The position numbers and the translations under genes were made by a program. The notes below the pieces were generated by a model. The model saw only the letters and a program-made list of their open reading frames with translations. It searched no databases and was not told the origin of the DNA. DNA of 64,000 nt from Pseudomonas sp. MYb185. GTDB lineage: Bacteria; Pseudomonadota; Gammaproteobacteria; Pseudomonadales; Pseudomonadaceae. The stretch spans positions 6,071 to 70,070 of the forward strand of contig NZ_PCQD01000005.1 of NCBI RefSeq assembly GCF_002979975.1, in the 5' to 3' direction. How positions within the stretch are numbered: the first letter of the stretch is position 1; every line of letters starts with the position of its first letter. Below, one piece after another: positions 18,955 to 36,826 of this stretch.

Positions 18955-19954
18955 GGCCGGGTTCCATCCCGGCCTGCGGTGTCTCATGGCGCGCTGCTGG
19001 TCGAGATGGAACTCGACCTTCCTTTATGGGTTGCGTTTGGGCGCTACGCCTGTGGTGTTGTCGTCGAGCAGGCGCTCGACAACCCGGTGTAATGGATGGC
19101 CGGGTTCCATCCCGGCCTGCGGTGTCTCATGCAGCTCTGCTGGTCGAGATGGAACTCGACCGGGTCGCGATCGACCTTCCTTTCGGTTCTGCGTTTGGGC
19201 GTTACGCCTGTGGTGTTGTCGTCGAGCAGGCGCTCGACAACCCGGTGTTATGGAGGGCCGGGTTCCATCCCGGCCTGCGGTGTTTCATGTTGCTCTGCTG
19301 GTCGAGATGGAACTCGACCGGGTCGCGATCGACCTTCCTTTCGGGTCTGCGTTTGGGCGCTACGCCTGTGGTGTTGTCGTCGAGCGGGCGCTCGACAACC
19401 CGGTGTTATGGAGGGCCGGGTTCCATCCCGGCCTGCGGCGTCTCATGGCGCGCTGCTGGTCGAGATGGAACTCGACCTTCCTTCTTCCTTGGGTGTACCG
19501 CCCCGGATCTGTGTTTGGGCGCTATGCCTGTGGTGTTGTCGTCGAGCAGGCGCTCGACAACCCGGTGTTATGGATGGCCGGGTTCCATCCCGGCCTGCGG
19601 TGTTTCATGGCGCGCTGCTGGTCGAGATGGAACTCGACCTTCCTTTCTGGGCTGCGTTTGGGCGCTATGTCCGTGGTGTTGTCGTCGAGCGGGGGCTCGA
19701 CAACCCGGTGTAATGGAGGGCCGGGTTCCATCCCGGCCTGCGGTGTTTCATGGCGCTCTGCTGGTCGAGATGGAACTCGACCTTCCTTTCGGGTCTGTGT
19801 TTGGGTGCTACGCCTGTGGTGTTGTCGTCGAGCGGGTGCTCGACAACCCGGTGTTATGGAGGGCCGGGTTCCATCCCGGCCTGCGGTGTTTCATGCTGCT
19901 CTGCTGGTCGAGATGGAACTCGACCTTCCTTGGGGTGTAGTGCGCCTGCGCTAC
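18955..19954. repeat. Tandem array of seven hairpin units, 143-bp basic period
   Basis: Seven GGCCGGG-TTCCAT-CCCGGCC hairpins start at 18955, 19098, 19256, 19414, 19576, 19719 and 19862, giving periods of 143, 158, 158, 162, 143 and 143 bp. Each unit also has GGTCGAG-ATGGAA-CTCGACC 24 bp later and (except the last) a GTCGAGC/GCTCGAC hairpin. The two 158-bp units carry the same 15-bp insertion (with TCGCGA) after the second hairpin; the 162-bp unit has a different ~19-bp insertion. The array ends with GTAGTGC-GCCT-GCGCTAC (19937-19954). Open frames across it are stop-free by composition and not genes. It splits the polysaccharide operon between a glycosyltransferase and the polymerase. Confidence 0.97.
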
Positions 19955-22552: not shown

Positions 22553-24781
22553 TCAGGCCTTCTCGGATTTGTATTCGTAGAAGTAATGGCCGTAGTGACT
22601 GTATCCATACACGGATGACTTCTTGATTACGGCGTTGAAGATGGCTCCCTTGAGCTGGATATCGTCCTGCTCGAAACAGCGCTTGGCGGCTTCGATCTCC
22701 TTGGCCGAGTTCTGGCCGAAGCGGGTCACCAGCAGGCAGATGCCCGCCTCGCGACCGACAATGGAGGCATCGGTAACCGCGAGTACCGGTGGCGTGTCGA
22801 TCACGATCAGGTCGTAGCGCTCGTCGACTTCACTGAGGAAGCGACGGAAGTTCTCATGCATCAGCAGCTCGGAAGGGTTGGGCGGAATACGCCCGCGGGG
22901 TATCAGGTCCAGGCTGTCGATCTCGGTACGATGGATGGCGCCGTCGAGGCTGAGCCGCGCGGTGAGCAGCTCGGATAGTCCGTCCCTGGGGGGCAGGCGA
23001 AATACCTTGTTGAGATAGCCCTTGCGCATGTCCGCATCGATCAGCAGTACCTTCTGCCCGGCCTGGGCCATGGTTGCGGCCAGGTTGGCGGCGACGAAGG
23101 ACTTGCCCACCGAGGGGCTGGGGCCGGAAATCATCAGCACGTTGTTCTTCGCTTCGGCATGAGCGAAGTGCAGGCTGGTGCGCAGGCGGCGCAGGGACTC
23201 CACGGCCAGGTCGGCGGGGTTTTTCATGGCCAGCAACAGGGAGTTGCGTTGTGCCGCCTTGCTGTTGCTGCGCAGGTTCTTCTCCAGATACTCCTGGTCC
23301 TTGCTGAATGGGATGGCGGCATACACCGGCAGCCCCAGGTGCTCGATGACCTCGGGATTTTCCACGCCGCGATTATGGATCTGCCGCAGCAGCACCACGG
23401 CAACGCCGAGAAAGCCGCCGAACAGCGTGGCCAGGACGGTGATCAGTGCCTTCTTCGGTTTGACCGGGCGCGATACGCTGGCATCCGCGGCGTCGATGAT
23501 GCGCACGTTGCCGACGGTGCCGGCGCGCAGTACATCCAGCTCCTGGGAGCGGTTGAGCATCGCGGTATACACCTCGGTGGTCACCGCTACGTCCCGGGAC
23601 AGGCGTAGCAGCTCCTGCTGGGTTTCGGGCAGTTCGTCGACCTTCTTGCTCAACTCGTTGCGCTGGCGCTGCAACTGCTGGGTCTGCTCGAGCAGGATCT
23701 GGTAGGACGGATGCTCGCCAGTGAAGCGGCGTTGCAGCTCGGCGCGCTTGAGATTCTGCTCGGAGATCAGGGTATCCAGTTCGATGATCTGACTCAGTAC
23801 CGACTGGGTCTCGATGGAGATATCGACCGACTTGCTGCTCATCTGGAAGTCATTCAGGGCCTGCTCGTAGCGCTCCAGTTCCGAGCGAACCTGGGGCAAC
23901 TGCTCGCGCAGGAATTCCAGGCTCTGCGCCGCTTCGGCGGAGTTGCGCTCAACGTTCTGGCGAACATAGAGACGGCTGACTTCATCCAGTACGCGAATGG
24001 AGTGCCGGTGATCCGGATGCTGCAAGCTCAGGCTGATGATGCCGGAATCCTTGGAACGTTCGCTGGCCTCCAGCTCGTTCTGGTAGTACATGATGGTGTT
24101 CAGCAGACGGTTGCGGGATACGCTGAAACGCGTGCCTGGTCGGGCCAGCAACGTGGCGATCTGTACCTTGAAGCCGTTCTGGTCGATCTGCTGGCCGGTC
24201 TGGCCAGCCAGCAGCTGTGTGTCATGTTCATCGTAGATACTGAAGTAATCATACTCACCGGCGACCAGCGTCAGGGGCTTGTCCAGATACTCGACCGGCA
24301 CCTCCAACTGGAAGATATCCAGCTCCTCGCCACCCCAGGCATATTCGGCCAGACCAAACCAGGGGATGGCCAGCTCGCCCTTGAACTGCGGTTGAAAGCG
24401 CCGCGCCGCCCACTCACCGATGAGGGGGAAGTGGTTGGGCGCGGAAACCGTATCCAGTTTCAGGTTGATCACGGCCTGACCTATCACCGCTCTGGATTTG
24501 AGCAGCTCGATCTCCGTGACGGCTTTGGAAGGGGTGCCGAAGACGTCAGAGAGTTCCGAGAGCCCTGCCAGGCGACCGCCGCTTTTTTCCTCGACCTGGA
24601 TCAAGGCGTTGGCCTGGTAGATCGGCGTCGCCAGGATGGCGTAGGCCATGCCCAGCAGGGCAAAGACGACGGTCAGGCCGACGATGACCCATTTGCCCTC
24701 GATGAGCGCGCCGAACAGCACCGCCAGATCGATTTCATCGGTATTGCTCTGGTTCCGATAGGGAGACGTGATGTTTTGCAT
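22553..24781 (-). CDS. wzc: Wzc-type tyrosine autokinase / polysaccharide co-polymerase
   Basis: Start 24781 (AAGGA upstream) gives 742 residues. An N-terminal Wzz domain is framed by two membrane segments (about 32-52 and 425-445) with a long periplasmic coiled-coil region. The cytoplasmic BY-kinase domain shows Walker A SGPSPSVGKSFVAANLA, Walker A' LLIDADMRKG and Walker B LIVIDTPPV. The C-terminal tail is tyrosine-rich (YGYSHYGHYFYEYK), the usual autophosphorylation cluster. It controls chain length and export together with Wza and Wzb, neither of which is in the window. It is the first gene of the polysaccharide operon, directly after the gene for the wHTH-pseudokinase regulator. Confidence 0.96.
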   Translation of the reverse strand: MQNITSPYRNQSNTDEIDLAVLFGALIEGKWVIVGLTVVFALLGMAYAILATPIYQANALIQVEEKSGGRLAGLSELSDVFGTPSKAVTEIELLKSRAVIGQAVINLKLDTVSAPNHFPLIGEWAARRFQPQFKGELAIPWFGLAEYAWGGEELDIFQLEVPVEYLDKPLTLVAGEYDYFSIYDEHDTQLLAGQTGQQIDQNGFKVQIATLLARPGTRFSVSRNRLLNTIMYYQNELEASERSKDSGIISLSLQHPDHRHSIRVLDEVSRLYVRQNVERNSAEAAQSLEFLREQLPQVRSELERYEQALNDFQMSSKSVDISIETQSVLSQIIELDTLISEQNLKRAELQRRFTGEHPSYQILLEQTQQLQRQRNELSKKVDELPETQQELLRLSRDVAVTTEVYTAMLNRSQELDVLRAGTVGNVRIIDAADASVSRPVKPKKALITVLATLFGGFLGVAVVLLRQIHNRGVENPEVIEHLGLPVYAAIPFSKDQEYLEKNLRSNSKAAQRNSLLLAMKNPADLAVESLRRLRTSLHFAHAEAKNNVLMISGPSPSVGKSFVAANLAATMAQAGQKVLLIDADMRKGYLNKVFRLPPRDGLSELLTARLSLDGAIHRTEIDSLDLIPRGRIPPNPSELLMHENFRRFLSEVDERYDLIVIDTPPVLAVTDASIVGREAGICLLVTRFGQNSAKEIEAAKRCFEQDDIQLKGAIFNAVIKKSSVYGYSHYGHYFYEYKSEKA

Positions 24782-24786
24782 GATTA

Positions 24787-24803
24787 TCCTTGCGCAGGCG
24801 CAA
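24787..24803 (-). promoter_or_regulatory. Hairpin overlapping the wzc ribosome-binding site
   Basis: On the transcribed strand TTGCGC-CT-GCGCAA forms a perfect 6-bp stem whose 3' end runs into the AAGGA ribosome-binding site, nine bases before the wzc ATG. It could limit translation initiation of the operon's first gene. This is a small structure and may be fortuitous. Confidence 0.3.
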
Positions 24804-24978
24804 ATTAAGGATGGTGAAGCTCTGGCATGGCCTTTTTCAGGCACGCTACCGCCCCAGGATTTGCAGTCGGATCCTGAAAACTGTTGAGTTCTATTTGTTA
24901 AAACTTTCTCGGGCGGGCATACGGCAGCCACAACGGCTACTGCACGTTTGAGAAAAAGCAGTTTGGTAAAACGTACCG

Positions 24979-26094
24979 CTACTGCCGGAACATGTTTGCC
25001 AGGGCAGCCGACCAGATTTCAGGCTGTTGGTGATGTCCGATTCGGTGGGTGTACAGGGGCTTGACTAGGTCTTCCACAGACGCCGGCCGCAGGGAAGGGC
25101 AGGAGTGTGTGGCTGCTTCTATCGTATGCTGGATCGATCTATTGGTAATGTCTTGTCGCCAGTCAGGAAGCAGTGGCCGGGAAAAATCCGAGGCCAGTAT
25201 CTGGTACAGCAGAATTCCCAGAGAATAAATATCGCTGCGCTGGGAGACGCCGCAATTGCGGTAGGTTTCCGGAGCGCGGTAGAAACAGCTGCAATCGCTG
25301 CAATTACATTCCGTGACGGGATTGCTCACTGACTTGCCAGGTGCAGTGATCTGGATATGACCGTCTTCGGACACAAACAGGTTGCCGGGCTTCAGAAATG
25401 AATGCACGGTGCCTTTGGAGTGCTGCATGGACACTTCCCTGGCAAGGTTCATGAAAAGATCGAGCCGGTGCTCGATCGGCATGATGGATAGGTGGTGCCG
25501 TCCGGCCCAGGCATCCAGACTGGTACCACCTGCTGCGTGGAAGGCGGTGTCCTCCGCGTATGTTCCCGCTACTTCTGGCTCGACATCGACGGTGGCTCCG
25601 AAGCTGCCCTGCTCGTCGGTTGGATTGAGCGAAATGACATCCAGGTAATGCGATGACGGCGGTGGCGGGCTGATCCGTGCGCTGGTGAACAGGGGATTGC
25701 TTTTCACCTGACGTGGAGTGAGCTGGGGCGAGGGGATGATGCTGCAATCAGGCGCGGCTTCCATCTTTCTGACCGGCCCCTTGATGCGGTAGCCGACGCG
25801 GGGGATGGTAACCAGGAGCGTGGCATTTTCTCCCAGGGCCTTGCGCAGCTTGGCCGTCGCGTTAGCCAATACATTCTCCACGGTGAGGCGGCCGCCCCAG
25901 ACCGTTTGCAGCAGCTCGCCCTTGGTCACCACCTGGTCTGCGTGCTCGAGCATTTTTGCCAGTAATACCAATGGTCTACGCTCAATCGCTACAGGCGCTC
26001 CGTTAATCCTGAGTTCGAACTTCGCTTCATTGAATTCGGCTGTACCGAAGAAGTATCGGTACAGCCTGGCAGGTCGCTTATACAGTAAATCCAT
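24979..26094 (-). CDS. Winged-helix DNA-binding domain fused to a pseudokinase lobe with a CxCxxCxC motif
   Basis: Residues about 15-107 are an OmpR/ToxR-type winged helix (FELRINGAPVAIERRPLVLL ... TIPRVGYRIKG). After a ~75-residue linker comes the C-lobe of a Hanks-type protein kinase without a glycine-rich N-lobe. HRD is replaced by HSF (231-233), LKPGN is kept (234-238), DFG is replaced by APG (251-253), and the APE (274-276) and SDIYSLGILLYQIL (287-300) segments are kept. Between APG and APE lie Cys 263, 265, 268 and 270. There is no membrane segment. It is thus a soluble DNA-binding protein with a catalytically dead kinase-like sensor, perhaps metal-binding. It sits upstream of wzc on the same strand and is divergent from the ATP-grasp gene, so control of polysaccharide genes is the likely role, by inference. 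Confidence 0.85.
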   Translation of the reverse strand: MDLLYKRPARLYRYFFGTAEFNEAKFELRINGAPVAIERRPLVLLAKMLEHADQVVTKGELLQTVWGGRLTVENVLANATAKLRKALGENATLLVTIPRVGYRIKGPVRKMEAAPDCSIIPSPQLTPRQVKSNPLFTSARISPPPPSSHYLDVISLNPTDEQGSFGATVDVEPEVAGTYAEDTAFHAAGGTSLDAWAGRHHLSIMPIEHRLDLFMNLAREVSMQHSKGTVHSFLKPGNLFVSEDGHIQITAPGKSVSNPVTECNCSDCSCFYRAPETYRNCGVSQRSDIYSLGILLYQILASDFSRPLLPDWRQDITNRSIQHTIEAATHSCPSLRPASVEDLVKPLYTHRIGHHQQPEIWSAALANMFRQ

Positions 26095-26181
26095 ATGCCG
26101 TCTCCTCAGCAGAGATGAATTACGACGCTATTGGTGAACCACGACTTATTAAGGCAGATGTTTGCTGATTAAGTGTGCTGC

Positions 26182-26227
26182 GTTATTGAACCGTTATTGA
26201 TTGGTTACTGCTGAACCGGCGTTACTG
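26182..26227. promoter_or_regulatory. Phased direct repeats upstream of the regulator and ATP-grasp genes
   Basis: GTTATTGA (26182), GTTATTGA (26193) and GTTACTG (26204) recur exactly every 11 bp, and a further GTTACTGA lies at 26221. The repeats are in the 248-bp AT-rich gap between the divergent regulator and ATP-grasp genes. Helically phased direct repeats are the normal site type for OmpR/ToxR-family winged helices, so they may bind the adjacent regulator. There is no experimental basis for this in the sequence itself. Confidence 0.5.
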
Positions 26228-26342
26228 ATTCGTGAAGGCGGGCCGCTGTTTTTCATGCCTGAATAGCCCCTGTGGATGGGTGGTGGCAATCTCGTATCTG
26301 CTGCACCGACTAGGCCTCCCTCAAGTGCGCTGGGGTAAGTAT

Positions 26343-27329
26343 ATGGAAATCTTGCGTGGTTCTGCTGAAAAAATCGCTGAAAAAGCGAGAGTGTCAATCA
26401 TGTCGCCGGTTCTGGATCTTCTACCCGAGGTCGTGGAGTATCAACTGCGGTATCTGAAAAGACACGGCAAACTGTGCAACTTCAAGGACCCGAAGCGGTT
26501 GACCGAGAAACTGCATCACCGAATGCGCTATCCCTTGCCGCACTTTTCCCGCCTGGCCGATAAGGTCCTGGCCCGGGATTACATCCGGGATACTGTAGGT
26601 GAGAAGTTCAATGTCCCGTTGTACGATGCGGTGGAAATGGTAACTGCGTCACAATTTGATCGATTACCTGATGTGTTTGTCATGAAAACCAACAACAGCA
26701 GTGGTTCCGTTCGCATTGTGGCCGATAAGTCTCGGGAGAACATTGCTGAGCTGGTAGCGTTGGGCAACTCCTGGCTGCGTGATGACTTTTCCAAATGTCG
26801 CGGTGAACGACACTACAAGGCGATCCGCCCACAGGTGCTGTTCGAGCAGGCGCTATTGACGCCCAACGGACCTCCGGCGGATTACAAGGTGCATGTCTTC
26901 AATCCTGCCGAAGGGGAAAGCTTTCTCTTCGTGCAGGTCATCAATGGTCGCTTCGGCAGGATGACCCAGAATCTGTATTCGGCGGACTGGCGAAGTCTGC
27001 CATTCCGACTGGGGGGAACATTGCCGCCGAGCACCGATGCGGCGGTGACGGCGGCGCCCGACAATCTGTCCGACATGCTGGAAGTGGCCAGGCGGCTGGG
27101 GCAACCCTTTGGCTATTGCCGGGTGGATCTGTACCTGTTCGAACAGCGTATCTATGTGGGTGAAATCACTTTTACCCCGGGAGCCGGCGCTTTCAAGCTG
27201 CATCCGGCGGAATGGGACGAGAAGTTGGGAACATTGTTTCGTTGGCCGGAGATGCCCATGCCGAGTGTTGCCGAGACGATCAGCGAGCGCAGCAGTCACT
27301 TTCACGATGCGGTGAACGAGCTGGGGTGA
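26343..27329 (+). CDS. TupA-like ATP-grasp protein
   Basis: From the ATG at 26343 the product has 328 residues (a Met at 26400 is an alternative; the frame extends upstream to 26232 without a better site). It has the TupA-like ATP-grasp pattern: KDPKRLTEKLHHRM near the N terminus, VMKTNNSSGSVRIV as the ATP-binding beta strand and loop, LFEQALLTPNGPPADYKVHVF, and the metal-binding end RVDLYLFEQRIYVGEITFTPGAG. The founding member takes part in making the amino-acid part of teichuronopeptide, so this one may attach an amino acid or similar group to a polysaccharide. It is followed at 3 bp by an acyltransferase gene and is divergent from the wHTH-pseudokinase. Confidence 0.85.
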   Translation: MEILRGSAEKIAEKARVSIMSPVLDLLPEVVEYQLRYLKRHGKLCNFKDPKRLTEKLHHRMRYPLPHFSRLADKVLARDYIRDTVGEKFNVPLYDAVEMVTASQFDRLPDVFVMKTNNSSGSVRIVADKSRENIAELVALGNSWLRDDFSKCRGERHYKAIRPQVLFEQALLTPNGPPADYKVHVFNPAEGESFLFVQVINGRFGRMTQNLYSADWRSLPFRLGGTLPPSTDAAVTAAPDNLSDMLEVARRLGQPFGYCRVDLYLFEQRIYVGEITFTPGAGAFKLHPAEWDEKLGTLFRWPEMPMPSVAETISERSSHFHDAVNELG

Positions 27330-27332
27330 AGC

Positions 27333-29411
27333 ATGGACAGACACAACGGGGCGTCGGCGGCCGGTTCATTTCGCGGAGACATCGAAGGGTTGCGCGCGCT
27401 GGCGGCCTTGTTGGTGGCGATATTTCATATCTGGATGAACAAGGTGTCCGGTGGCGTGGATGTGTTCTTTGTAGCCTCCGGGTATCTGATCACGCTCTCG
27501 CTGTTGCGGCAATGCGAGCAGCAGGGCCGGGTGCGGCCACTGGTTTTCTGGGCGGGCCTGGCCCGGCGGTTGTTGCCGGCTGCGCTGCTGGTCATCGCCG
27601 CGGTGCTGCTGGGCACCTGGCTGTTGTTGCCACGGTCGCTGTGGATGCCGTCGATGAAGGAAAGCCTGGCGGCGATGTTCTACCTCGAGAACTGGCTGCT
27701 GGCACTCAACTCGGTGGACTACCTGGCACGCGACAATCTGCCCAGCCCGGTGCAGCATTACTGGGCGCTGTCGGCACAGGGACAATTCTATGCGCTCTGG
27801 CCGTTCGTCATCATGCTGGCGCTGTACCTGGGCAGGCGACTGCAACTGAATCGCCGTCAGGCGGTGATGCTGACGTTTGCCGGGGTCTTCATCCTGTCGC
27901 TGGGGTTTTCCATCATCCACACCGCTGCCAACCAGACCTTCGCCTATTTCAATACCTTTGCCCGGGTCTGGCAGTTCGCTCTCGGCGGGCTGGTGGCGAT
28001 CATGCCCTGGGCGTCGATTCCCGCTGAAATACGTCGGGTCATGGGCTGGCTGGGGTTGGTGGCCATTCTCAGCTGCGGCATGGTGCTGGATGTGTCGTTG
28101 AGCTTCCCCGGTTACGTGGCACTCTGGCCCTCGTTGGGCGCGGCGCTGATCCTGGCGGCCGGAGCGACCGTGGTGGGGGGCAGTGCAGGCCGGTTGCTGT
28201 CGATTCGACCGTTGATCTGGTTGGGCGGCATCAGCTATGCCTTCTATCTCTGGCATTGGCCGATAATGATCTTCTTCCGCGCCACCTTTGCCGAGTTGGG
28301 CGTTGCCTGGTATGGCGGGGTGCTGATCCTGCTGCTGTCACTGTTGCTGGCCTGGGGAACCACCCGACTGATCGAGAAGCCGGTGCGCAGCCATCTTGGC
28401 AGGCGGTCACCGGGCTTTGTCTATGTCACGGCCTTGGCTGCATTCGCTCCGCTGGTGCTGGCAATCGCCCTGTGGCGCAATGAGGTTCAGGGCCTGGCCG
28501 AGCAGTATCAGGTGCCGGAAACGGTGGATGCATCGTTGTATCCGGGCGCGCGGGCATTGGCTGCCGGGCTGGCGCACGGCTCCACCGAGGACACGGCCAT
28601 CATTCCGGAGCCGTTCATGGCCAGCAGGGATGTGCCCAAGCCCTATCGCGAGGGTTGCCATCAGAGTCTGCTGGGGAGCGAGGCGAGTGCCTGCCAATAT
28701 GGCCATGCGGATGGTGTGCTGACCATTGCGGTGGCGGGCAGCTCACATGCCACCCATTGGGTGCCGGCATTGGAGAAGATCGCTCTGCAGCGCAACTGGC
28801 GCCTGGTGAGCTATACCAAGAACGGCTGCCGCTTCACCGCCAATGCTGATGAATCGCCGGATAACCGCCAGAACTCCTGCGCAGTATGGAATGACAATGT
28901 GCTGGCGGCGCTCGAGCAGTTGGCGCCGGACCTGGTGTTTACCACCGCCACCGTGGCGGCGACGGCGGATCGCCCGGAGCATGTGCCGGATGGCTATGTT
29001 GAGCAGTGGAAGAAGCTGCAGCAGATGCAGCTGAGGATCATCGCCGTGCGCGATACGCCTTTCATGGGCTTCCATGTACCGACCTGCGTGGATATCAATG
29101 GCGCTGATTCGCGGCACTGCTCGCGTCCCAGGGAACAGGCGCTGGCGGCCGATCTGCGCCTGCCGCTGGAAGAGCTGGATGCGAAGGAGCAGGCTATCCA
29201 TTTCATCGATATGAGTGATTACTTCTGCACCCGTGACAGTTGCCCGGCGGTGGCGGGCAATGTCCTGATCTACAAGGACAGAAGCCATATATCCACGGTT
29301 TACATGAAGTCCCTGAGCGGCTTCCTGGCGGAGGCGATCGACCGCTCTAGCTGGCCGTTGGCTGAGCGCCAGGCCAGCCACTTTCCGAGGGGCAGACCGC
29401 TGGTGTTCTGA
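27333..29411 (+). CDS. Acyltransferase-3 family O-acyltransferase with C-terminal SGNH domain
   Basis: The 692-residue protein joins an OafA-type membrane domain (about 10 spans, residues 15-400; N-terminal signature RGDIEGLRALAALLVAIFH with the conserved Arg and His) to a periplasmic SGNH domain. The latter starts with AVAGSSHATHW (block I, with GSS rather than GDS) and ends with the YKDRSHIS block that carries the catalytic Asp and His. Such enzymes transfer acetyl groups across the membrane to polysaccharides. It lies 3 bp after the ATP-grasp gene, and both probably decorate the product of the adjacent locus. It is convergent with glmS, 21 bp away. Confidence 0.92.
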   Translation: MDRHNGASAAGSFRGDIEGLRALAALLVAIFHIWMNKVSGGVDVFFVASGYLITLSLLRQCEQQGRVRPLVFWAGLARRLLPAALLVIAAVLLGTWLLLPRSLWMPSMKESLAAMFYLENWLLALNSVDYLARDNLPSPVQHYWALSAQGQFYALWPFVIMLALYLGRRLQLNRRQAVMLTFAGVFILSLGFSIIHTAANQTFAYFNTFARVWQFALGGLVAIMPWASIPAEIRRVMGWLGLVAILSCGMVLDVSLSFPGYVALWPSLGAALILAAGATVVGGSAGRLLSIRPLIWLGGISYAFYLWHWPIMIFFRATFAELGVAWYGGVLILLLSLLLAWGTTRLIEKPVRSHLGRRSPGFVYVTALAAFAPLVLAIALWRNEVQGLAEQYQVPETVDASLYPGARALAAGLAHGSTEDTAIIPEPFMASRDVPKPYREGCHQSLLGSEASACQYGHADGVLTIAVAGSSHATHWVPALEKIALQRNWRLVSYTKNGCRFTANADESPDNRQNSCAVWNDNVLAALEQLAPDLVFTTATVAATADRPEHVPDGYVEQWKKLQQMQLRIIAVRDTPFMGFHVPTCVDINGADSRHCSRPREQALAADLRLPLEELDAKEQAIHFIDMSDYFCTRDSCPAVAGNVLIYKDRSHISTVYMKSLSGFLAEAIDRSSWPLAERQASHFPRGRPLVF

Positions 29412-31331: not shown

Positions 31332-31960
31332 GGGTTGTCGCGCGCCTGCGCGACAACGGGCTGGCTGCTGCTGGGAGCTCGCAGGCGTCGCGCAGGGGCG
31401 CTACACCCCGAACCAGGCACAGCGCGTTCTCGGGTTGTCGCGCGCCTGCGCGACGACGGGCTAGCTGCTGCTGGGAGCTTGCAGGCGTAGCGCAGGGGCG
31501 CTACACCCCGAAACCAGGCACAGCACGTTCTCGGGTTGTCGCGCGCCTGCGCGACGACGGGCTGGCTGCTGCTGGGAGCTCGCAGGCGTAGCGCAGGGGC
31601 GCTACACCCCGAAACCAGGCACAGCGCGTTCTCGGGTTGTCGCGCCCCTGCGCGACGACGGGCTGGCTGCTGCTGGGAGCTCGCAGGCGTAGCGCAGGGG
31701 CGCTACACCCCGAAACCAGGCACAGCGCGTTCTCGGGTTGTCGCGCGCCTGCGCGACGACGGGCTGGCTGCTGCTGGGAGCTCGCAGCAGCAGCGCAGGG
31801 GCACTACACCCCGAACCAGGCACAGCGCGTTCTCGGGTTGTCGCGCGCTTGCGCGACGACGGGCTGGCTGCTGCAGGGAGCTCGCAGGCGTAGCGCAGGG
31901 GCGCTACACCCCGAAACCAGGCACGGCACGTTCTCGGGTTGTCGCGCGCCTGCGCGACGA
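31332..31960. repeat. Tandem array of 101-bp units with two hairpins each
   Basis: The motif GGGTTGTCGCGCGCCTGCG starts at 31332, 31432, 31533, 31634 (loop variant), 31735, 31835 and 31936, that is, every 100-101 bp. Each unit has a GTCGCGC/GCGCGAC hairpin with a GCCT-type loop, then GTAGCGC-AGGG-GCGCTAC about 40 bp later. The first unit has GTCGCGC and the fifth a mismatched arm in place of GTAGCGC. The last copy ends 10 bp before the stop of the chemoreceptor gene. Units are near identical, indicating recent amplification or homogenisation. Confidence 0.97.
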
Positions 31961-31969
31961 CACTGGGGC

Positions 31970-36401: not shown

Positions 36402-36826
36402 GTCGAGCAGGCGCTCGACAACCCGAAGGGCGTAGCGCCGGCGCGCTACACCCCGGAGTAGCCAAGCATAATGTGGGTGCACTCGCCCCTCCCTCCAATG
36501 GGTTGTCGAGCGCCTGCTCGACGACGGCTGTTGCGAGGGGGCTGGGAATTCGCTGGCGCAGCGCCGGCGCGCTACACCCCAGAGTAGCCCAGCATAATGT
36601 GGATGCATTCGCCCTCCAATGGGTTGTCGAGCGCCTGCTCGACGACGGCTGCTGCGAGGGGGCTGGGAATTCGCTGGCGTAGCGCAGGCGCGCTACACCC
36701 CGGAGTAGCAGGTGCAAGCAGAGTGTGGATGCACTCGCCCCCCCAATGGGTTGTCGAGCGCCTGCTCGACGACGGTTGTTGCGAGATGGCTGGGAGTTCG
36801 CTGGCATAGCGCAGGCGCGCTACACC
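36402..36826. repeat. Hairpin array, roughly 124-bp units
   Basis: After a GTCGAGC-AGGC-GCTCGAC hairpin (36402-36419) and a GTAGCGC-CGGC-GCGCTAC hairpin, three units begin with GGTTGTCGAGCGCCTGCTCG at 36501, 36622 and 36749 (121 and 127 bp apart). Each unit has the GTCGAGC/GCTCGAC hairpin, a conserved 35-45-bp spacer (GGGAATTCGCTGGC), a GTAGCGC/GCGCTAC hairpin and a variable AT-richer stretch. It fills the whole space between the convergent acnA and ABC-transporter genes. Confidence 0.95.

Follow-up and report, generated by a model that had tools for sequence, protein, structure and literature searches.

The DNA-binding domains of PhoB/OmpR response regulators have the winged-helix fold in common with the regulator analyzed here (Foldseek TM-scores to the target of 0.79 to 0.85), and the pho box is built from two 7-nucleotide repeats with a 4-nucleotide spacer, a tandem direct repeat with the same 11-bp period as the regulator's predicted operator (PMC3131613). 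The response regulators differ in carrying a receiver domain, which the regulator does not have, and in their half-site, CTGTCAT rather than TAACG. CadC/ToxR proteins resemble the regulator in placing an N-terminal winged helix on a module that is not a receiver (CadC domain 5ju7, E-value of 4.7e-7), but the regulator has no membrane helix and carries a kinase lobe in its C-terminal part. A single protein that combines kinase and winged-helix modules is also known in type-2 BREX, namely, PglW; in contrast to the regulator, PglW has a kinase that is active, carries several wHTH modules toward its C terminus together with a STAND domain that is inactive, and belongs to a defense system (PMC12839542). 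SidJ, named here only for comparison, is a bacterial pseudokinase in which a kinase fold serves something other than protein phosphorylation. In the open-licence literature searched, we found neither the short nor the long winged-helix kinase form described; a first-pass annotation of this DNA had taken the layout to be undescribed, which holds for that literature, with the change that the protein now appears to be a shortened descendant of winged-helix kinases of full length.

The regulator is encoded in a 64,000-nucleotide stretch of DNA, the whole of which we refer to as the window, and has the following parts:

24979 to 26094, minus strand: regulator gene, winged helix plus kinase C-lobe (371 amino acids, ATG start), syntenic in six genomes of the genus
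25759 to 26061, minus strand: winged-helix domain of the PhoB/OmpR type (residues 12 to 112), from Pfam Trans_reg_C, AlphaFold2, and Foldseek (VicR, PhoB-pho box)
25528 to 25758, minus strand: linker (residues 113 to 189), of low confidence by pLDDT and probably disordered, at the place of the kinase N-lobe, with the highest dN in most pairs
25039 to 25527, minus strand: predicted pseudokinase C-lobe (residues 190 to 352), with HSF for HRD and APG for DFG, and with APE, DIYSLG, and R336 kept

By domain score and fold, the regulator qualifies as a PhoB/OmpR-type winged-helix protein. Pfam matches Trans_reg_C over residues 34 to 104 with 41.4 bits against a cut-off of 26.2, the first domain is matched in Foldseek by the DNA-binding domains of VicR, PhoB, and YycF, and 10-residue blocks of the winged helix average 82 to 97 pLDDT in an AlphaFold2 model built on an alignment of 32 rows. 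There is no receiver domain with a phospho-acceptor Asp (Pfam; the winged helix starts at residue 12), no transmembrane helix after the winged helix (peak hydropathy, 1.01), and no TPR match in Pfam over the 371 residues. The C-terminal part is matched by the Pfam Pkinase profile over residues 208 to 304, with 48.7 bits against a cut-off of 31.7, and this match, confined to profile positions 98 to 195 of 263, leaves out the half that corresponds to the N-lobe. An N-lobe with a VAIK Lys and a glycine loop is absent, with Pkinase matched only from that position onward and the linker (residues 116 to 189) modeled at <50 pLDDT.

In the same model, the blocks of the C-lobe reach 81 to 96 pLDDT over residues 191 to 350, except for 70 and 53 at residues 251 to 270, and its helices span residues 193 to 352. 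Structural comparison of the lobe (residues ~180 to 356) with kinase domains gives Z scores of 17.8 to 18.7 and rmsd values mostly of 2.3 to 3 Å over ~160 to 170 residues, among the 50 kinase matches listed. A gap-free phmmer alignment with PknA sets VHSFLKPGNL...ITAPG against VHRDVKPGNI...ITDFG, so that HSF stands for HRD and APG for DFG, and both APE and SDIYSLGILLYQ are found in the lobe. We classify the C-lobe as a pseudokinase by its fold and its retained structural motifs, with a loss of phosphotransfer predicted from the sequence. The first-pass annotation had described an OmpR/ToxR-type DNA-binding domain joined to a Hanks-type C-lobe without an N-lobe, in which both catalytic motifs were replaced; Pfam, AlphaFold2, and structural comparison agree on the domains, the PknA alignment confirms the replacements, and the C-terminal part, checked by structure prediction, models as a kinase lobe.

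A remnant of the N-lobe in the linker was considered, with HYLDVISLN resembling HFVDIIDWN (beta-4) and GGTSLDAWA resembling GGDSLLAWS of intact relatives; we do not claim it, because MAFFT left HYLDVISLN unaligned and AlphaFold2 pLDDT stays <50 up to residue 189. Membership among defense kinases (PD-T4-6, MAD6, PglW) was also set aside, the matches being confined to the kinase lobe (residues ~187 to 347) and the neighboring genes being of polysaccharide type.

The short form is present in 8 of 37 genomes searched from the genus, with nine homologues in all. Six are syntenic orthologues (the window, G003, G007, G008, G004, and G036; the other five at 68 to 88% to the window) and three are divergent (one in G012 and two copies in G001; 36 to 40% to the window). 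All nine frames are open, with no stops. Close homologues were checked for full HRD/DFG motifs, and in the alignment the catalytic Asps of both are missing in all nine. The alpha-F Asp (D288), the APE Glu (E276), Gly293, and R336, which we take to be the Arg that pairs with the APE Glu in kinases, are retained in nine of nine. The HRD His is kept in six and is Tyr in three, and the Lys of LKP is kept in two, with Gln in four and Ser in three. That LKPGN, APE, and SDIYSLGILLYQ are kept, as had been annotated, is correct for the window, but among the orthologues only G003 shares the intact LKP, the Lys being Gln in four of the six.

Between pairs of the six orthologues, dN/dS is 0.02 to 0.12 for the winged helix (one pair undefined), 0.13 to 0.30 for the linker, and 0.13 to 0.36 for the lobe, rough figures given that dS often approaches saturation outside the lobe; lobe dS is 0.4 to 1.3. 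By these estimates the lobe is constrained, yet looser and faster-evolving than the winged helix. One could read it as a vestige, the protein being an autoregulatory winged-helix repressor in which what is left of the kinase does no more than keep the domain soluble, and both the faster evolution of the lobe and the erosion of its loops and catalytic residues, which goes furthest in the three divergent homologues (19 to 20 bits, under the Pkinase cut-off in Pfam), fit such a history. We regard it as unlikely, given that the lobe holds its dN/dS range among six orthologues at those dS values, that its structural residues are invariant in nine of nine homologues, and that the lobe helices of the divergent G012 protein still model with high confidence. 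In the G012 model, the catalytic and activation loops are at ~52 to 73 pLDDT, and the BRAF and FGFR2 kinase domains are among the Foldseek matches. The earlier preference for a scaffold over decay stands insofar as the dead lobe is conserved, by its open frames, its dN/dS, and its structural residues; the lobe may act as a scaffold or in ligand sensing.

No short winged-helix/C-lobe form was found outside the genus in draws of genomes from the family (298), order (293), class (369), and phylum (349) and around G684 (147 and 338), draws that overlap and in which only 5 to 13 candidates were scored per genome. Matches at 1e-15 occur in 27 genomes of the family draw, namely, the 8 in the genus and 19 covering only query positions up to 163, and in the order draw 6 genomes have a match, one being the window's genome and the others giving 59 to 61 bits to one part. 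Plasmid-borne relatives give 180 records that match the regulator, none across >80% of the query. Short winged-helix frames are present in G973 (C9:809832, 211 amino acids), G1006, and G987, and G1059 has a fragment at a contig end.

Relatives in other families, of ~900 to 1,000 amino acids (some frames longer), join a winged helix to a whole kinase. Both relatives examined have TPR matches and a hydrophobic segment, with peak hydropathies of 2.06 to 2.07 versus 1.0 to 1.5 in the four short forms tested, which have no TM-like segment. HxDxKPxN and DFG are present in all 24 relatives extracted (23 distinct proteins; 25 were requested and L084 was left out) with a filter that demanded the letters KP, and in 17 of 18 loci of a later, unfiltered set; MAFFT misplaces the DFG columns of intact relatives, and the DFG calls rest on the phmmer alignment and motif searches. 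Winged-helix/Hanks kinase/TM/TPR proteins such as L136 and L137 have the same N-terminal domain order as the regulator, whose winged helix is 55 to 63% identical to those in 20 operator-bearing relative loci and which shares with them the upstream TAACG repeat. Proteins of the L136/L137 type differ from it in having a whole kinase (HKDLKPAN, DFG), a membrane-helix candidate, and TPRs, and in length (~930 versus 371 amino acids).

In each domain tree the nine short proteins fall into a single clade (99/94 and 100/96). The winged-helix tree places them and the relatives apart from other winged helices (95/85) and nests them among the relatives weakly (83/60); the C-lobe tree separates short proteins, relatives, and L076/L077 from other kinases (98/91), with the short proteins beside the relatives. 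L076 and L077 are carried as outgroup rows, though these are distant winged-helix kinases. Judged from the tree of each domain and from the TAACG repeat shared upstream, both domains of the regulator share ancestry with the winged-helix/kinase/TM/TPR family and are not a chance fusion. The simplest history would be a single fusion of winged helix and kinase, followed by loss of the N-lobe, membrane segment, and TPRs in the line of the host genus. Separately, L175 (G1407:C7, ~98992 to 100140), a 949-amino-acid frame, has HQSLNARN and NLG (motifs read by eye) in place of HxDLKPxN and DFG and is apparently an independent full-length pseudokinase of the same wider family; like the regulator it has a winged helix and a kinase-like domain without catalytic residues, and unlike the regulator it keeps the N-lobe length and a long C-terminal part.

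The genes on the two sides of the regulator are as follows:

26343 to 27329, plus strand: TupA-like ATP-grasp gene, divergent (PF14305, 119 bits), starting at the ATG aligned across orthologues
27333 to 29411, plus strand: acyltransferase-3/SGNH membrane protein gene, after TupA (PF01757, PF19040)
22553 to 24781, minus strand: wzc (chain-length determinant/BY-kinase), first gene of a polysaccharide cluster (PF13807, PF23607, PF02706)

In all six orthologous loci, the regulator is flanked by wzc, downstream on the same strand with an ATG (MQN...) that lines up across orthologues, and by the divergent TupA and acyltransferase-SGNH pair, the acyltransferase gene being in the same place in each (one is cut by a contig end). 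TupA adjoins the regulator in eight of eight regulator-bearing genomes; it is present in 11 of the 37 genomes, these 8 plus 3 of the 29 others (G023, G027, and G014). For G012 and one G001 copy, the regulator is divergent to TupA (54 to 56%), followed by a flippase-like gene (by Pfam in G012 only) with no wzc; the wzc of these two genomes is elsewhere, with TupA still beside a regulator copy. The other G001 copy (G001b) has the repeat, no TupA or wzc nearby, and an acyltransferase gene two open reading frames (ORFs) downstream. Linkage of the orthologues was also checked, and eight of the nine short homologues lie beside polysaccharide-type genes.

Three elements stand in the region between the regulator and TupA:

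26181 to 26207, minus strand: predicted operator, three TAAC[CG] half-sites with an 11-bp period (TAACC-N6-TAACG-N6-TAACG), a repeat shared with the upstream regions of relatives
26220 to 26224, minus strand: further TAACG half-site of the window's genome, separated from the triple by 17 bp on its upstream side
26252 to 26263, minus strand: second conserved block TTCAGGCATGAA, a TTCA...TGAA inverted repeat in the divergent intergenic region, on the TupA side

In upstream alignments of the orthologues, TAAC[CG] recurs at 11-bp steps, oriented with the regulator, and in the six orthologues the predicted operator lies ~71 to 113 bp before the regulator start, in the gap common to TupA. An exact TAACS pair at 11 bp is upstream of eight of nine regulators, G004 being the exception, with one half-site changed (TAACC-N6-TAACT-N6-TAACG). 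Within the window, TAACS-N6-TAACS occurs as two overlapping pairs at the regulator and one elsewhere, against 0.05 expected in 64 kb. The triple repeat has a single occurrence in the window's genome (G000) and is found in 4 of the 37 genus genomes, at the regulator in G000, G007, and G008 and elsewhere in G020, which is without the regulator; its backward control has one match (G025) in the 37 genomes. The block TTCAGGCATGAA is kept with small changes in six orthologous regions, with one site in the window against 0.01 expected, and may serve as a promoter element or as another binding site. A scan of positions 24600 to 26500 for a sigma-70 promoter found none, with 1.1 expected.

The repeat extends to the relatives. 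A strict TAACG pair is upstream of 20 of 34 relative loci (counting L106 and L108, where only the winged-helix frame was seen) versus 0.006 loci expected by shuffling, and same-strand TAACG spacings in relatives are 11 (26 pairs) or 22 (6 pairs) only, with no reversed pairs. Moreover, the repeat is present in 20 of 25 loci with the recognition-helix motif T[VI][DE][KNQ]V[LI][AP]NA, a motif derived from those same 34 loci, and in none of the 9 without it. Among 18 new loci, two of five with the motif have the repeat (a third has one changed base) and none of 13 without it does, so that the pooled counts are 22 of 30 and 0 of 22. Fisher values of 3.8e-5 for the first sample and 2.2e-8 pooled ignore the kinship of the loci and overstate the association, because related loci are not independent. 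The helix motif is not required for the repeat, because the repeat is also upstream of the three divergent short homologues, none of which fits exactly: the third motif position is Lys or Arg, and G001b also has Ser for Asn. At the level of sequence, we regard as established the domain make-up, what was lost from it, the shared ancestry, the conservation of the repeat, and its association with the recognition helix.

Repeats alone cannot name their binder, and the TAACG repeat might be bound by another protein, its upstream placement reflecting a shared global regulator. Two loci from one genus (L176 and L177) have the helix motif and no repeat, and genome-wide the strict pair occurs 0 to 7 times per genome (14 genomes, with or without the regulator), no rarer than background and outnumbered by its backward control. 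We nonetheless think a different binder highly improbable in view of the pooled split by helix motif, the single orientation and spacing, and the places of the other copies: of 17 strict pairs listed away from the regulator in 8 regulator-bearing genomes, 13 were read, and 10 of these are inside ORFs (at least 90 amino acids), and the remaining 3 fall between ORFs (one in G012, two in the window's genome). These counts do not show a wider TAACG regulon. Two pair sequences are each shared by two genomes (G004/G035 and G007/G008), and the copies read sit inside ORFs. Of the three pairs that the window's genome has away from the regulator, two are between ORFs, so further targets are possible; these two, at G000:C6:25257-25272 (in the gap before two divergent ORFs) and G000:C17:5402-5417, may be such targets or chance occurrences.

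The first-pass annotation had suggested that the regulator may link a cell signal to polysaccharide output, being next to wzc, and the wzc operon downstream could be its main target: the regulator is directly upstream on the same strand in six of six orthologous loci, and read-through from its promoter is possible. The wzc leader has no TAACS pair, and it contains an element of its own:

24842 to 24853, minus strand: GGCGGTAGCGTG, which matches the ops element exactly (one site against 0.02 expected), within the wzc leader and identical in six of six orthologues

We take GGCGGTAGCGTG to be the ops/JUMPstart sequence. An 8-nucleotide ops site and JUMPstart are described in the 5' UTRs of RfaH-dependent operons (PMC6358824). 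RfaH is encoded elsewhere in the window's genome, and Rfam over the window matched only tRNA, with nothing at the ops element. Because the exact ops is in the wzc leader of all six orthologues, RfaH control of wzc is favored, and the wzc operon probably has its own elongation control. Two divergent homologues adjoin TupA without wzc, and of the 24 genomes with a wzc homologue, among the 37 searched, 16 have no regulator. The link to wzc is one of adjacency; the DNA evidence favors autoregulation and the divergent TupA/acyltransferase operon, and wzc as the main target appears improbable.

A Wzb-like low-molecular-weight tyrosine phosphatase gene is upstream of wzc (within ~0.6 kb) in six genomes whose wzc does not adjoin the regulator, G033, G035, G012, G001, G022, and G002 (L129 to L134; G033 checked by Pfam/NCBIfam, the others by eye). 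The six regulator-wzc loci have no Wzb-like ORF between the two genes (24853 to 24979 in the window), and the regulator takes that place. A second wzc (60%) is at G000:C11:25285-27468 (L135), close to an RfaH gene and a glmS-like one, and this region is probably a second polysaccharide locus.

The explanation that we favor, and consider probable, is that the regulator is a one-component autoregulator of its own gene and the divergent TupA operon, cut down from a receptor and using its pseudokinase lobe as a dimerization or docking module. Loss of the N-lobe, the membrane helix, and the TPR domain from an ancestral winged-helix/Hanks-kinase/TM/TPR receptor would have given a noncatalytic, cytosolic one-component transcription regulator. 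The winged helix may bind head-to-tail on the 11-bp-spaced TAAC[CG] repeats, as PhoB does on the pho box, and occupancy of the repeats would control the regulator gene and the divergent TupA-ATPgrasp/acyltransferase operon, which is of surface-polysaccharide type; its own gene and TupA are the likely targets. The pseudokinase lobe, presumably no longer phosphorylating, most likely dimerizes or docks a partner and would set repeat occupancy in this way. Binding to the repeat, the direction of regulation, dimerization, and the signal are what we infer in this account.

A more tentative idea, which we consider possible, is that the half-kinase lobe works as an allosteric switch, sensing either a metabolite, such as a precursor of the polysaccharide, or a partner protein, such as a live kinase in the same cell, and signaling straight to the winged helix. 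If true, the regulator would represent a class of transcription factors made from half a kinase, and in the wider family the kinase domain would act on its own DNA-binding domain, with a TAACG operator in cis. Irrespective of this reading, the regulator is a conserved DNA-binding protein that appears to be built from a kinase C-lobe alone, and the repeat that it has in common with intact, probably membrane-bound relatives provides a concrete candidate operator for the short family and, in other bacteria, for many winged-helix kinases that are intact. This candidate operator opens the regulation of both the short and the intact proteins to direct reporter tests. Elsewhere in the window there are tandem arrays, apparently intergenic, at 19012 to 19931 (units of ~143 to 158 bp), 31332 to 31961 (101 bp), and 36429 to 36826 (121 bp).
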